From a virus, in IMG/VR virus record IMGVR_UViG_3300009285_003279, positions 1-27,474 of that record: 27,474 bases of DNA. The stretch is one strand, 5' to 3'. Shown here one piece after another: positions 3,534 through 9,608 of the stretch (position 1 is the stretch's first letter; each line of letters begins with the position of its first letter). The notes below the pieces were generated by a model. It ran no database searches. It was not told where the DNA came from and saw only the letters and a program-made list of their open reading frames with translations. The translations under genes and the position numbers were made by a program.

Positions 3534-4460
3534 CTACGTAAGCCCCTCGACTTCAAGGGAAAATTCAGTATATTGCGTGTCAGATGTCACGAACTCAAAC
3601 CGCTTCCAGAATCCGTAAACAATCAGACAGGTGTAATCCTCCGATCCGATCCACACCAACGGAGTCGCCCGGTATAGGGCGAGCTGCCGGAATATCTCAT
3701 CGATGATCGTGTTTTTGATTATCAAGTCTCCGCTAAGGCGCTTTGAAAATGCCCGTTCCGTGATGGTATAATTCCCATCATCGTCCGCCTCTTTGGTCGA
3801 ATAGTCCGTGATTCCGACGGCTGCATCCAGCGTCAGCGTTCCGATTTCTGACTTGATCCCGATGACAATCTCCCCGCACTTCACCATTCCGCCGGGGTAT
3901 GTGATCGTAACTGATAAAGTAGCCAGCAGATAGGGCGGAAGGTTAACCTCAGCAAGATCGGATTGCACGAGGTCAACGGCCCTGATGATCGGTTCAAAAA
4001 AGTATGTGTACCAATCGATGACGTTGACGGTCGATATCAGGTTGATGGATTTGTTAAAAACCTCCCCTTCCACCGGATCGGTCATGACCATATGAACGTT
4101 TGTGGCGTCCAGATTCCCAAAGAAGGCGCTGTCTATAAGGCCCGGAGTGAAAACGTAATTCATGGAATCCGCTTTCTCTGTCTGCGATCCCACTTTTCCA
4201 TCGAAGACCTTCCAACGATTCGTTGCGGAAACTTCTTTCCAGTATAACGGGACGGCCAGGGCGCAATCGACAACCGGATCATGGTTCAGATTCGCCCCGG
4301 CCAGGGATTCGTAAATCATATGGACGTTCGGCGTCGTGACGATGCATCTTTCCGCTGCGGCATAAGTTGTTCCGCTGTTCCACGCCGCATAGTCCGCCTC
4401 GGTAACATCCGACGAAGTCAGAATCGCATCCGTGATCGTTGTGGGGCGAATTATATTCAT
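3534..4460 (-). CDS. distal tail protein downstream of tape measure (308 aa)
   Basis: The start at 4460 is chosen because its ATG shares one base with the tape-measure stop (TAATG). An upstream in-frame ATG at 4496 would lie inside the tape measure. The N-terminus (MNIIRPTTITDAILTSSDV) leads into a region with W-N-S-G-T-T-Y and H-M-I-Y-E-S-L, a carbohydrate-binding-like turn. I recognise the pattern from many prophage proteins placed just after the tape measure, usually annotated only as tail or hypothetical proteins. The rest is a long beta-rich body ending in FSLEVEGL. It may form part of the tail tip. No gpJ-like hub or NlpC/P60-type protein lies beside it, so it may do part of their work. 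Confidence 0.65.
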   Translation of the reverse strand: MNIIRPTTITDAILTSSDVTEADYAAWNSGTTYAAAERCIVTTPNVHMIYESLAGANLNHDPVVDCALAVPLYWKEVSATNRWKVFDGKVGSQTEKADSMNYVFTPGLIDSAFFGNLDATNVHMVMTDPVEGEVFNKSINLISTVNVIDWYTYFFEPIIRAVDLVQSDLAEVNLPPYLLATLSVTITYPGGMVKCGEIVIGIKSEIGTLTLDAAVGITDYSTKEADDDGNYTITERAFSKRLSGDLIIKNTIIDEIFRQLALYRATPLVWIGSEDYTCLIVYGFWKRFEFVTSDTQYTEFSLEVEGLT

Positions 4461-7400
4461 TATGTCCTCACAGGAGGGGTGCCGACCGTATCCCATTGTT
4501 CGGTATAGCCGAGTTGCTTCCCGGCGTAGGAAGCGATCTTTCGAAGCTCGCCCCGAAGTGCCCGGATTTCAGCCACCAGCTCCCCGCTATCCGCCCCGCC
4601 TCTCCACTCCGCTGCATCCCTGGCATTCAGTACCGCCTCGCCCCTGTGGGCCGTTATGCCGAAACCATCATAGGGTACATAGTCAAGGCCGTTGCGGGCT
4701 TGGAAGCCGAACTGAGTTGATGACGGCGCGATTTTGCCCATTGAATCAGCCAGCCACGACAGGTCGCCGCTGATCCCCTCAAAGGAAATACTCCCAGCTC
4801 CACCTTCGCCACCATTGATGGCGTTTCCTATATAGTTAAAGGCAAGGCCCAATGCATATTTTTTCGCCAGGTCTGTTCCAATACTTTTTGCGGCATCGAG
4901 AAGCGACGTGACGCCACCCGCCGTTGCGGAATAACCGCCAACCCCGCCACCTATGGCCCCCTTCAAAGCGGCATTCCAATCGCCGCTGGAATATATCAGT
5001 CCCGACATCCCCCCCATGCCCGCGCCTATTCCCGCCCCGGCCAAACCGCCCCCGACGTAACCGGCAGCCCCGCCTGTTGCATAGGACATGATGGCAATTG
5101 CGAGATACTTTATCCATTCCCCGGTTGACCAAAATCCCTTATTGATGGTGCTCATATCCATGTCTTGGATTGTCCCATCTTCATAGTGGACCCGCCTCAT
5201 ATTCTCACTTAACTGCTCATAACCGAGTATATCGTTGTATCGTAGATTTATAGGCGCTCCAAATTGATCGACTGCATTCCCCGATTCAGTCGTGCTGGAA
5301 AATGCGGGAGATGAGGCTCCTTTGGTAAGATACACATTGGCCCAATCCATGAGGGCCTGAAATGTTTCAAGGTTTGGTGGAACAGCCGGGGGGCGGTATC
5401 CTAAACTTCTGGCGAGGTCATAAGCGGAGGAGTAAATGTATTGTGGCGTCACCATCCCGCCATCCGCAAATCCCGGTATGTACCCGCCGTTTTTCGCGGC
5501 ATAGGCCATCGATTGATTGTGCTCCATCACATAGCCCGGACCGCGCGGGAAGAGAAGCTCAGGCCCGCGCTCGCCGACCCATACGGGCTTGCCGCCGATA
5601 GGACCGCCCTCCGCCGCAAAGTCTGCAAATTCAGTCCCGGAGGTCCCGCCTCCTGCCGTGCCGCCCCCACCGCCGGTCCCGATTGCGTTCCATAAATCCC
5701 AGCCTTTATTGATGATGCCGAGAATAGAGGAGGAGTCGGAAGTCCACGACCCCTTGAACATCATCAGGATGTCGTTGGCGGCGGCCTCAACGATCATGTC
5801 GCCGATGCTTTCGCCCAGCTTTGTCAGCATGTTGTCCCAGACGGTTGACCACGCGGCCTCAAGATTGCTAAAGTCTCCCTTTACGATGTCCTTGAAATTA
5901 GAGCCGAACGCTTTCGCGGCATCCGTTGAAAACTGTTTCGTCAGATTGTAGGCCGTCGTGCCCCAAGTGGTGTGCGCCGTGGTGATTTCGAGCAACCCGC
6001 CCTTGACGCCATCAAAAAAACCATCGCTGGCCTTGAGCCTCTTGATTTCTTCCTTCTCCAGTTCTTGCGTCACCCATTGAGCGACGGCTACCTCATCAAC
6101 GCCGAGTTCGCGGTATTTCTGCGCCTGAGATTCGATAAGGCCCACCGCTGCCGAAAAGTATTGATCGGCATAGCCCCGGAGATCCTTGTAGATTTCCCGC
6201 TCGGCCTCACCGCGTTTTTTGGCACGTTCGATACTATCCATCGTGAGCTTGACGCCCATTTCGATCTGTTGCTCCATCCCGTCGATGGCTTCTCTCGTTG
6301 CTTTCTCGTTTTCCCTTATGATCTTATCCGCAGCTTCATGTTCGATTCTCAGTATTTTGTCCGTGCTCACCTTCGCCCAATGAACACCATCATCCCTCAT
6401 ATCCTCTTCGGCTTTGGCCACGGCGAGGAGGATTTTCATTTCATCCGCGTATCTCTTATCGAGCAGCTTTTCGTATTCCTCTGCGGCCTTCTTCCGCGCC
6501 GCTGCCGCTTTTTCGTCGATTGCCACCGTCCGCTGTCCGGCGATCCCCATCTTGTCAATGGCCTTGGTGACGTTATCCGTGGCCAGCATCGCTTCCTGTT
6601 GCTTTGCGGTCCACGCCATTACCCCTTCTTTGGCCCCCTTGATGCTGCCAGCGGCTTCATCGGTTGCGGTAGCTATGGCTCGCAAGGCATCCGCCGTTCC
6701 GGTCATACCGGCGAAGTCTGCGATCCCGGCCATACCCTTCAACATGAGGTTAAGCGGGGTCATGACGAAATTGATCGTTTCAAGGACGGTCTGCCCGGCG
6801 GTGAGGAACGTTATTCCAATCAGCCCCGCCGCAACATTCACGCCTTGCAGGGTCTTTAACAATCCGAGGCCGAGCACTTCCTGAATGTCTCCCCACTGAT
6901 TCTGAAGTTGTTTCCACTGCCCGGCGTAAGTGACAAGGCTGGCCTGAGCCGATCCGCCGAAGCGTTGCTCAAGCTGCTTCATGACCGAATCGAATACTTC
7001 TCCCGCCGTTGCGGTCTCGGAAACTTGGATGCCGAGCCGTTTCAGGCCGGTTGTCTGTCCCAAATATGCCTTGCCGAGAATTTCAGATGCCTTTTCAACG
7101 GTGATCCCCTCGTTGGCCTTTGCCGTCGCATAGTCAAGGGCCACCCGCGTCGCGTTTTTCACTTCTGCATTCGACATTCCGAAAGACTTCAAGTTCCCCA
7201 TGACGGCAAGCGTGAAGTCGTCCTCATAGGATGTCACCTTTTGAATATGTTCTGCAAAGTCCTGCATGTCCTTCAGGGCGGCGCGGGAGAAATCCCCCTG
7301 ATTTTTCAGCGCCATGCCCATTTTGAGCAGAGCCGTTTCGGATTCCATGTAGGCTTTGATGGGGGCTTGAGCTGCGTTGGCTACCTGCTGAAATAGCTGT

Positions 7401-7531
7401 GTTGCCTGATTGACGCCCGTGGCCATGACCTGCCAGCTTTTCGCAAAGCCATTGATAGAGGTCTGGGCATCGGCCATACCCTGCTGAAGTTTGGCTATAT
7501 TCGTGCTGATGTCAATCAGGATTCCGGGCAT
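4460..7531 (-). CDS. tape measure protein
   Basis: At 1023 residues this is the longest gene in the window. It fixes tail length and is probably involved in DNA ejection. Residues 1-110 are helical (ANAAQAPIKAYMESE-type repeats). A hydrophobic stretch occurs at about 225-270 (AAGLIGITFLTAG), and long charged helices fill about 320-500. A Gly/Ala-rich hydrophobic region (YATGGAAGYVGGGLAGAG) lies near residues 800-850. Two tape-measure signature segments are visible: VGERGPELLFPRG near residue 650 and AHRGEAVLNARDA near residue 975. The start overlaps the upstream chaperone stop as TAATG, with GAGG upstream. Placement directly after the frameshifting chaperone pair is the standard siphovirus order. 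Confidence 0.92.
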   Translation of the reverse strand: MPGILIDISTNIAKLQQGMADAQTSINGFAKSWQVMATGVNQATQLFQQVANAAQAPIKAYMESETALLKMGMALKNQGDFSRAALKDMQDFAEHIQKVTSYEDDFTLAVMGNLKSFGMSNAEVKNATRVALDYATAKANEGITVEKASEILGKAYLGQTTGLKRLGIQVSETATAGEVFDSVMKQLEQRFGGSAQASLVTYAGQWKQLQNQWGDIQEVLGLGLLKTLQGVNVAAGLIGITFLTAGQTVLETINFVMTPLNLMLKGMAGIADFAGMTGTADALRAIATATDEAAGSIKGAKEGVMAWTAKQQEAMLATDNVTKAIDKMGIAGQRTVAIDEKAAAARKKAAEEYEKLLDKRYADEMKILLAVAKAEEDMRDDGVHWAKVSTDKILRIEHEAADKIIRENEKATREAIDGMEQQIEMGVKLTMDSIERAKKRGEAEREIYKDLRGYADQYFSAAVGLIESQAQKYRELGVDEVAVAQWVTQELEKEEIKRLKASDGFFDGVKGGLLEITTAHTTWGTTAYNLTKQFSTDAAKAFGSNFKDIVKGDFSNLEAAWSTVWDNMLTKLGESIGDMIVEAAANDILMMFKGSWTSDSSSILGIINKGWDLWNAIGTGGGGGTAGGGTSGTEFADFAAEGGPIGGKPVWVGERGPELLFPRGPGYVMEHNQSMAYAAKNGGYIPGFADGGMVTPQYIYSSAYDLARSLGYRPPAVPPNLETFQALMDWANVYLTKGASSPAFSSTTESGNAVDQFGAPINLRYNDILGYEQLSENMRRVHYEDGTIQDMDMSTINKGFWSTGEWIKYLAIAIMSYATGGAAGYVGGGLAGAGIGAGMGGMSGLIYSSGDWNAALKGAIGGGVGGYSATAGGVTSLLDAAKSIGTDLAKKYALGLAFNYIGNAINGGEGGAGSISFEGISGDLSWLADSMGKIAPSSTQFGFQARNGLDYVPYDGFGITAHRGEAVLNARDAAEWRGGADSGELVAEIRALRGELRKIASYAGKQLGYTEQWDTVGTPPVRT

Positions 7532-7770
7532 TACCGTTTCCTCAGCTTCTTTTTTCCGCCTGCCGCTTTATGCGCCGCAAAGAGGTTTTCCAGTTTACTC
7601 ACCACTTCTTCAGGTTTCTGTTTCACTTCCGGCTTCTTATTCATTACCCGGAAGAATACCTCCCACATCGTCAATTCGTAACTATCCATGCTGTTCAAGA
7701 GCTGCCGCCGGGTCATTTTGAGTTCGCGGGCAAGGGACATGATGAAAAAATCCCTCCCCCGCAAACTCAT
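7531..7770 (-). CDS. tail assembly chaperone, -1 frame extension (GT-like T part)
   Basis: This 79-codon frame begins exactly where a -1 slip on A_AAA_AAA would continue from the upstream gene. Slipped reading would give a 198-residue fusion (119 + 79). No ribosome site precedes the ATG at 7770. A second ATG at 7740 lies in the loop of a strong stem whose 5' arm hides its GGGGAGGG, so independent initiation looks weak. The sequence has a SYELTMWEVFF segment typical of short proteins before the tape measure and ends with many lysines (KAAGGKKKLRKR), suited to binding the acidic tape measure. By analogy with lambda G/GT, the fusion would chaperone the tape measure and recruit tail-tube subunits. 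Confidence 0.75.
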   Translation of the reverse strand: MSLRGRDFFIMSLARELKMTRRQLLNSMDSYELTMWEVFFRVMNKKPEVKQKPEEVVSKLENLFAAHKAAGGKKKLRKR

Positions 7771-7776
7771 TTTTTT
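7723..7776 (-). promoter_or_regulatory. programmed -1 ribosomal frameshift signal
   Basis: On the minus strand the upstream gene ends GAA AAA AAA TGA, placing the heptamer A_AAA_AAA (7776-7770) exactly in the zero frame. A 15-position stem follows: the 5' arm is 7765-7751, the 3' arm is 7737-7723 and the loop is 13 bases. It has 12 Watson-Crick pairs, two G-U pairs and one G-G mismatch. The spacer is 4 bases to the A-U/G-U base of the stem, or 7 bases to its G-C core, which matches known -1 frameshift signals. The new frame reads ATG AGT TTG and continues 79 codons to the tape-measure start. Confidence 0.85.
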
Positions 7777-8126
7777 TCAATGGCGTCCTGTTCCGCTTTC
7801 GATATGCCGTTCAAATCCTGGGCTGCATCGAAAAGCCTCTGGATCGCCTTTGCCGACTTCTTACCGAGAAGATCGATTTCCTTTTCAGTGAAAAGCCGCA
7901 ATCCCTTATCGTCCGTGATAGCCCTTGAAAGAAGGTTCGCCCGGAAGTTCTTCCGGTTGATATTCACCTTCCCCGCCGAGTCTGTTTCATAGATTGACGC
8001 CTCAAACGCATCCCGATCCGCCGCCGTCATTGTCGACACCCGGACATCCCCGCCCCATTCGGGAACAGCAATATCCTTGAACGGCAAATCATCCGCCTTC
8101 AAAATCTGATCCTTGTTCAATAGCAT
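7767..8126 (-). CDS. tail assembly chaperone, upstream frame (G-like)
   Basis: The start at 8126 (MLLNKDQILKADDLPFKDI) is preferred because GGAGG lies 7 bases upstream. A longer frame from 8174 would overlap the preceding tube gene. The 119-residue product has an N-terminal strand region and a helical C-terminus rich in charge (LFTEKEIDLLGKKSAKAIQRL). The motif VSTMTAADRDAFEAS is typical of the short proteins between tail tube and tape measure (tail assembly chaperones). It ends in Lys-Lys-stop directly on a slippery A run, and a minority of ribosomes should continue into the next frame. It would bind and protect the tape measure during tail assembly. Confidence 0.8.
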   Translation of the reverse strand: MLLNKDQILKADDLPFKDIAVPEWGGDVRVSTMTAADRDAFEASIYETDSAGKVNINRKNFRANLLSRAITDDKGLRLFTEKEIDLLGKKSAKAIQRLFDAAQDLNGISKAEQDAIEKK

Positions 8127-8143: not shown

Positions 8144-8809
8144 TTACGATGACACCGGCAGGATAAACTCGCACCCGCTTGACAAGGTGATCGAAATATC
8201 CGCCTTCAATGCCTGATCTACTGCCCCCGTAATGCTGAATCCTGATACATAGCCATTGAAGAACATGGCCCCTTTGTGCGTTGTCGGATGGGTTTCAATG
8301 ATGTCATACCAACGCTTCGTTCTGGAAACCATATCGCTTTCCAGCGCCCGATGGATCTCGGAAGATGTCTCGACGTTGAACAGCACCGACAAAGACACTT
8401 GGCCGGGGTCTTGAAGCCCGACCAGCTTTTCCTTCGCCGTACTCTGCAAAGTAGTAACATCAATCACGTTGGCCGTGATGCCTGGGCCGTTGAAACTGAC
8501 AACCTCTCCGATGGCCTGCATGACATGGCCGGTAAGCGTGACCGTTACCCCGGATGCTTGGGCCGCCACTGCATCATAGACCCCAAGATGCGTTGTCGCT
8601 GCGGTGGCCGACGATATGGTGAATACCTTGTTGTTAAGGCTTGCGTTGCTGAAAACCCGCATCCCTGCAACAAAGTCTGTGAATCCGGCCTGCCGCCGAA
8701 TCTCCTTTGATACATTGTCAAAAGAGATTGTATTCGTCGACAGGTATGCCGTCGTCCCTATGACCGTGCTTTCTCGGCGTATCACTACGCCCTGTGAATT
8801 TAATGCCAT
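8144..8809 (-). CDS. major tail (tube) protein paralogue with inserted domain
   Basis: The 221-residue protein shares its N-terminus (MALNSQGVVI) and about 120 C-terminal residues with the next upstream gene product. The shared signatures are GEVVSFNGPG, ANVIDVTTLQSTAKEKLVGL, GYVSGFSITGAVDQALKADISITLSSG. These resemble the lambda gpV-type tail tube fold. Compared with its neighbour it has an extra block of about 75 residues (roughly 17-93) including GFTDFVAGMRVFSNASLNNKVFTIS, a beta-rich module that resembles repeat domains found in other phage structural proteins. It may form a decorated version of the tube or be the main tube subunit. Spacing to the chaperone gene is 17 bases. Confidence 0.75.
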   Translation of the reverse strand: MALNSQGVVIRRESTVIGTTAYLSTNTISFDNVSKEIRRQAGFTDFVAGMRVFSNASLNNKVFTISSATAATTHLGVYDAVAAQASGVTVTLTGHVMQAIGEVVSFNGPGITANVIDVTTLQSTAKEKLVGLQDPGQVSLSVLFNVETSSEIHRALESDMVSRTKRWYDIIETHPTTHKGAMFFNGYVSGFSITGAVDQALKADISITLSSGCEFILPVSS

Positions 8810-8831: not shown

Positions 8832-9257
8832 TTACGTCGAGAAGACGACCCCGCCGGAAATGAGAATAGTCACATCGCTTGTCAGCTTCTGATCGACCGC
8901 CCCCGTAACCGAAAGGCCGTTGACATACCCCTCCATCTGCATGGATTTCGCCGTGGCTGAGGTTGATAACTGAAGCAGAAGGATGCCCTTGGTCCTGTTA
9001 ACCATGCACTCCCGCAGAAGCCGCTGACCGGGACTGTCAACATCGAAGTTGCAGTTAAGGGTCATTTGCCCTGCATCGTAAAGGCCGATCAATTTTTCCT
9101 TTGCCGTGGATTGAAGGCTTGAAACGTCGATGACATTCGCACTCATGCCCGGCCCGTTAAAGCCGACAACTTCGTCGATCACGTTAGACGACGCCGTTGC
9201 CACCGCTACCGTCGTTGTCGTCCAATATGCGATAATTCCCTGAGAGTTCTGAGCCAT
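8832..9257 (-). CDS. tail tube protein, short paralogue
   Basis: The 141-residue product MAQNSQGIIAYW... carries DEVVGFNGPGMSANVIDVSSLQSTAKEKLIGLYDAGQ-type sequence, followed by MEGYVNGLSVTGAVDQKLTSDVTILISGG. The GYVNGLSVTG..D....SDVTI pattern is typical of phage tail tube proteins that end with a beta-hairpin packing into the tube wall. It is the simpler of two tandem paralogues and probably the ancestral form. An AGGAGG ribosome site precedes the ATG. The two gene products may mix in the tube, or one may cap it. Confidence 0.75.
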   Translation of the reverse strand: MAQNSQGIIAYWTTTTVAVATASSNVIDEVVGFNGPGMSANVIDVSSLQSTAKEKLIGLYDAGQMTLNCNFDVDSPGQRLLRECMVNRTKGILLLQLSTSATAKSMQMEGYVNGLSVTGAVDQKLTSDVTILISGGVVFST

Positions 9258-9272
9258 ACTCTTTACCTCCTT

Positions 9273-9608
9273 TTAAGTTACTGAGATCGCCGCGATGGTC
9301 AATCCCGTATGGGTCGTGTAGGTCATCTGCACGCACCCGCTTGAGTCGTTGTAGGCGTCACGGTCAAAGAATCCTGACATCCTCTCACCGCTTGCGCTCA
9401 CGTCGGCTGTTACGTTAATTGCCACCAGCCCTTTCGGAACAGGGGCCACCTTTGACGCTATAATCACGGCATTCGTCGCCGCTACCGAGTTCTTGATGTG
9501 TACGAACGTATGGCCGTCATTTAGAAATTCATCCCCGGAAACCGATGCCGCCGTGAATACCGGTGTCAATCCCGCCGTCGATAAGGTCTGCACTGTTATC
9601 CTGGCCAT
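9273..9608 (-). CDS. small virion structural protein (111 aa)
   Basis: The protein begins MARITVQTLSTAGLTPVFTAAS and continues with DEFLNDGHTFVHIKN and VAATNAVIIASK. I recognise this pattern (ITVQ-x-S/T-x-A-G-L, then a D-G-x-T-F-h-x-h-K-N strand) from small beta-sandwich proteins near tail-tube genes of prophages, though no experimental role is known to me. It is placed between a tail terminator-like gene and the tube genes and is separated by 3 bases from the upstream stop. It could be a head-tail joining or decoration protein. Confidence 0.6.
   Translation of the reverse strand: MARITVQTLSTAGLTPVFTAASVSGDEFLNDGHTFVHIKNSVAATNAVIIASKVAPVPKGLVAINVTADVSASGERMSGFFDRDAYNDSSGCVQMTYTTHTGLTIAAISVT

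Follow-up and report, generated by a model that had tools for sequence, protein, structure and literature searches.

Gene organization of the tail region

The window, i.e. the whole 27,474-nt stretch of an IMG/VR virus record that was analyzed, carries all of its head and tail genes on the minus strand. This set comprises the terminase, portal, protease, major head protein, tail terminator, two tail tube homologues, a chaperone, a T-like ORF and an ORF of 1023 codons. Locally, the order is tail tube, chaperone, T-like ORF and a long ORF of tape-measure size, as follows:

8144..8809, minus strand: major tail (tube) protein homologue, just upstream of the chaperone (phrog_158, E 3e-19; Pfam Phage_TTP_11)
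7767..8126, minus strand: tail assembly chaperone (G-like), 119 aa, zero frame, ending in ...IEKK-TGA (phrog_344, E 7.1e-25)
7531..7770, minus strand: T-like extension in the -1 frame, 79 codons (tail protein family phrog_337, E 2.3e-4)
4460..7531, minus strand: 1023-codon ORF in the tape-measure position, so called by its size and position only

The chaperone gene starts at ATG 8126 and stops at TGA 7769-7767, and its product is 66-70% identical to those of its closest relatives. The identity as a tail chaperone, which had been proposed in an initial annotation, is supported by the phrog_344 match, by the phrog_337 match of the -1 ORF and by the gene order. The same annotation described a -1 frame of 79 codons extending up to the tape-measure start and giving a fusion of 198 residues, which we confirmed (ORF 7770-7531; 119 + 79 residues); the predicted junction reads Glu-Lys-Lys-Met. 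The stop codon of the -1 ORF, TAA 7533-7531, overlaps the ATG of the 1023-codon ORF (7531-4460), for which no match was found in PHROG or Pfam.

The two tail tube homologues are arranged in tandem (8144-8809 and 8832-9257, minus strand) and share 49% identity over 116 residues, with approximately 70-100 additional N-terminal residues in the downstream copy. This pair was also found in the related loci L002, L004, L007, L008, L009, L082 and L083, and one match each was found in L010 and L013.

Sequence features at the junction of the two reading frames

The chaperone gene ends with the codons GAA AAA AAA TGA on the minus strand. Around these codons, the following features were identified:

7786..7789, minus strand: AGGA, a Shine-Dalgarno-like sequence 9 nt 5' of the heptamer and a candidate upstream stimulator
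7770..7776, minus strand: slippery heptamer A_AAA_AAA in zero frame, its last base abutting the TGA; also present in L002/L003, L004, L007 and L082
7767..7770, minus strand: ATGA, in which a -1 ATG overlaps the zero-frame TGA, a possible reinitiation start
7719..7769, minus strand: stem-loop directly 3' of the heptamer, with 19 pairs, a G·G mismatch (7757/7731) and a loop of 11 nt (7749-7739)
7752..7760, minus strand: GGGGGAGGG, a Shine-Dalgarno-like run for ATG 7740, buried in the 5' arm of the stem (mean paired probability 0.89)

The position of the heptamer, in zero frame and ending at the stop codon, was as originally described, with AAAAAAA at 7776-7770 followed by TGA at 7769-7767. The run of As at the slip comprises eight in the window and its close relatives and nine in L082. 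At 6-18 nt 5' of the heptamer, AGGA, GGAG or GAGG was present in 59 of the 85 relatives that carry a canonical heptamer (see below), whereas offsets chosen as controls gave 0-26 of 85; a coding bias for Glu-Glu possibly contributes to this difference.

ATG codons occur in the -1 frame at 7770, 7740, 7716, 7689, 7668 and 7644, and the earlier description of a single internal ATG was therefore wrong. The associated proposal, that the stem hides the ribosome site of this ATG, holds for ATG 7740, the G run of which has a paired probability of 0.89, but not for a sole internal ATG.

A stable stem-loop lies directly 3' of the heptamer

The full stem pairs 7769-7750 with 7738-7719 and has a folding energy of -34.6 kcal/mol. 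It contains the stem with 14 of 15 paired positions that had been noted initially (7765-7751 with 7737-7723, beginning 4 nt past the heptamer), which was borne out as part of this longer structure. When the heptamer occupies the P and A sites, the lowest pairs would lie inside the ribosome, leaving the upper stem at the usual spacing.

We compared this stem with synonymous recodings in which the -1 frame protein was kept and codons were drawn at the window's own usage. None of the 2000 recodings was as stable as the observed sequence (mean of -13.9 versus -29.4 observed, for a 57-nt part). Sliding windows on the minus strand were equally stable in only 7 of 5484 cases, a count that may reflect overlapping windows at the hairpin itself. 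The stability of the stem is far beyond chance. In 50-nt windows of the minus strand, it ties for strongest with one other hairpin near 4302, which has an energy of -29.9 kcal/mol and lies within the ORF following the tape-measure-sized ORF.

The stems of L004, L003, L082, L009 and L083 were likewise more stable than their synonymous recodings (p 0 to 0.013); those of L007 (p 0.10) and L008 (p 0.22) did not differ significantly from them. Over 84 relatives, the mean folding z-score was -1.58 at the site, as compared to -0.12 and -0.28 at downstream and upstream controls, respectively. Compensatory stem changes among relatives, which the initial annotation had put forward as a test, were found at three pairs that changed on both sides among five sequences, but 56 to 110 of 500 shuffles matched this result, and covariation on the exact 19-pair stem is only suggestive. 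This is partly because the best stem of some relatives forms in a shifted pairing register. For the 19-pair stem, the synonymous-recoding test was more informative than pairwise covariation.

A search of the whole window against Rfam revealed no family at the gathering threshold. Read on the plus strand, 7719-7777 consists of the hairpin followed by CATTTTTTTT, and resembles a terminator. We rejected an antisense terminator, because no gene is expected on the plus strand and frame conservation explains the sequence; the resemblance probably just follows from the A8 run and the stem. A terminator scan did not list the hairpin, the loop of which exceeds the limit of the scan.

Conservation of the junction among relatives

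To compare the junction among relatives, 80 viral loci, two more obtained via the -1 ORF and 57 from bacterial genomes were pooled, which gave 100 dereplicated junctions, the window included. A canonical in-frame heptamer was found at the junction, near the start of the -1 protein, in 85 of these 100, versus 3 in-frame matches at 9382 positions elsewhere in the same genes. The fair figure for conservation is 85/100, as the 85 were selected for having the heptamer. The sequences in these 85 were A_AAA_AAC (38), G_GGA_AAC (21), A_AAA_AAA (10), G_GGA_AAA (7), A_AAA_AAT (6) and three others. The heptamer is conserved in relatives, a check that the initial annotation had proposed.

In 60 of the 85, the -1 frame lacks ATG, GTG and TTG throughout the stretch that opens after the preceding stop and ends nine codons beyond the slip, and the -1 protein is nevertheless conserved right after the slip, with an RPERRF-like sequence that becomes RGRxYF in the window's clade. 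In these relatives, the conserved peptide is reachable only by a change of frame. Because the start is missing from 60 of 85 relatives in which the protein is conserved, frameshifting appears to be the ancestral decoding of the -1 frame. Within the window's clade, residues R4, G5 and F9 of the -1 protein, all encoded upstream of ATG 7740, are invariant. L083 and L008, which are close to the window, carry A_AAA_AAT and no start, and they retain the RGREYF motif together with R4, G5 and F9.

Fifteen relatives lack a canonical heptamer. Approximately 11 of them keep the -1 frame protein, including L045 and L059 (..GGRF..) and L139, which has A_AAT_TTC at this position. In L137, L138, L143 and L145, the junction seems to be truncated or unrelated. 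Six loci (L045, L053, L056, L059, L069 and L072) keep ..GGRF..RPERRFYFRLA without a canonical X_XXY_YYZ heptamer at the junction, and it is possible that a single tRNA slips on a G run there. The Sphingomonas-derived loci L144, L147, L148 and L149 have A-rich runs with A_AAA_AAA, which in three of the four overlaps A_AAA_AAT.

Proposed programmed frameshifting and alternative routes of expression

We interpret the site as one of putative programmed -1 frameshifting by the ribosome, as in lambda G/GT, which would join two small siphophage tail-assembly proteins, and we assign this reading a probability of 0.92. Ribosomes translating the chaperone mRNA would arrive at AAA AAA with TGA as the next codon and would be stalled there by the downstream hairpin, perhaps together with the upstream Shine-Dalgarno-like AGGA. 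In a minority of them, both lysyl-tRNAs would re-pair one base back, and translation would continue as ...Glu-Lys-Lys-Met-Ser-Leu-Arg..., giving a 198-residue G-T fusion next to a short form of 119 residues. The lambda proteins suggest that this short form may coat the tape-measure protein and that the T part of the fusion may recruit the tail tube protein. The heptamer, its frame, the stem and the family-wide conservation of the heptamer and the -1 protein are direct observations; the occurrence of the shift, its rate and the roles of both proteins are inferred, and frameshifting would presumably supply most of the second-frame product. Counting against a shift, A_AAA_AAA is reported to shift far less readily than A_AAA_AAG when placed in constructs in E. 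coli (PMC5009743).

An alternative is that ribosomes terminate at TGA 7769-7767 and restart at ATG 7770-7768, which would give a free T-like protein of 79 residues instead of the fusion. The window's clade has ATGA at the junction in each of its six members; one of them, L009, has its heptamer (A_AAA_AAC) two codons further upstream, so that nothing there imposes the ATG. In other families, both routes can coexist in one gene (PMC3711429). However, wherever TGA directly follows A_AAA_AAA, an ATGA arises by necessity, and with it the -1 ATG at 7770, so that five of these cases carry no independent weight. Of the 79 other relatives, which must rely on the fusion, only L052 has an ATG near the slip. 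The closest AGGA of Shine-Dalgarno type ends 15 nt 5' of ATG 7770, and this ATG sits at the foot of the strong stem, with a paired probability of 0.61. We therefore regard reinitiation in place of the fusion as highly improbable. It may contribute some free T-like protein in the window's clade, but it cannot be the ancestral expression route of the -1 frame. A two-way junction in this clade, at which A_AAA_AAA-TGA would yield the G-T fusion by shifting and ATGA the free T-like protein by reinitiation, so that three products are made in set ratios, is conceivable but unlikely.

The same Glu-Lys-Lys-Met junction would arise if RNA polymerase added one A on the A8 run, with the result that some mRNAs encode the fusion. 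The length of the run in the window, its close relatives and L082 is consistent with such slippage, poly-A runs of n > 7 having been implicated in programmed transcriptional realignment (PMC3711429). Nevertheless, the frame change is kept with short A runs, of three As in 22 of the 85 (G_GGA_AAC and the like) and six in 27 of the 85, which makes ribosomal shifting the better general explanation; moreover, transcript slippage needs neither a downstream hairpin nor an in-frame heptamer. Its chance of accounting for the site is very slight, and mass spectrometry alone cannot separate it from ribosomal slippage, because the peptide across the junction is identical when one A is inserted. Translation starting independently at ATG 7740, within the -1 frame, from GGGGGAGGG, a good Shine-Dalgarno-like run 11 nt upstream of this codon, is scarcely credible, as the run is paired in the stem and the product would lose the clade-invariant residues R4, G5 and F9.

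The programmed frameshift proposed here constitutes a new example of the lambda G/GT kind, the mechanism of which is already known, and this known device is unusually well marked in the window by the eight-A run and the 19-pair hairpin. Biologically, a frameshift is the expected device at this locus. Its recognition would allow the second protein to be annotated correctly, since gene callers would give a separate ATG-started gene in the window's clade.

Comparison with known frameshifting systems

The initial annotation referred to -1 shifting as known for lambda G/GT and many siphophages, in agreement with a review according to which lambda G/GT and many dsDNA phages frameshift at the tail chaperone locus (PMC5009743, with Levin 1993 and Xu, Hendrix and Duda 2004 as sources cited there for lambda). 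As in lambda, the site in the window lies between the tail tube and tape-measure genes, the -1 shift falls close to where the first ORF ends, and a short and a fused product are made, here by prediction. The lambda slippery site is G_GGA_AAG, whereas the window has A_AAA_AAA abutting the stop codon, a 19-pair hairpin and a junction ATGA, and the two are likened here by their arrangement.

Streptomyces phage Dubu gp13/gp14 (NC_070828) has a chaperone 40% identical to that of the window, a heptamer directly before TGA and an annotated two-piece joined CDS. Its heptamer differs (G_GGA_AAC), and it has no junction ATG. The E. coli dnaX cassette also combines an A-rich heptamer with a 3' stem-loop and a 5' Shine-Dalgarno-like element, but its heptamer is A_AAA_AAG and its frameshift makes a shortened protein, whereas the shift in the window would give a longer one. 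In the HK97-like tail chaperone cluster of GeneTack, which is compared with the window by gene type, the frame transition also occurs in the tail chaperone, and shifting of 6-7% was measured in E. coli for two genes (PMC3711429).
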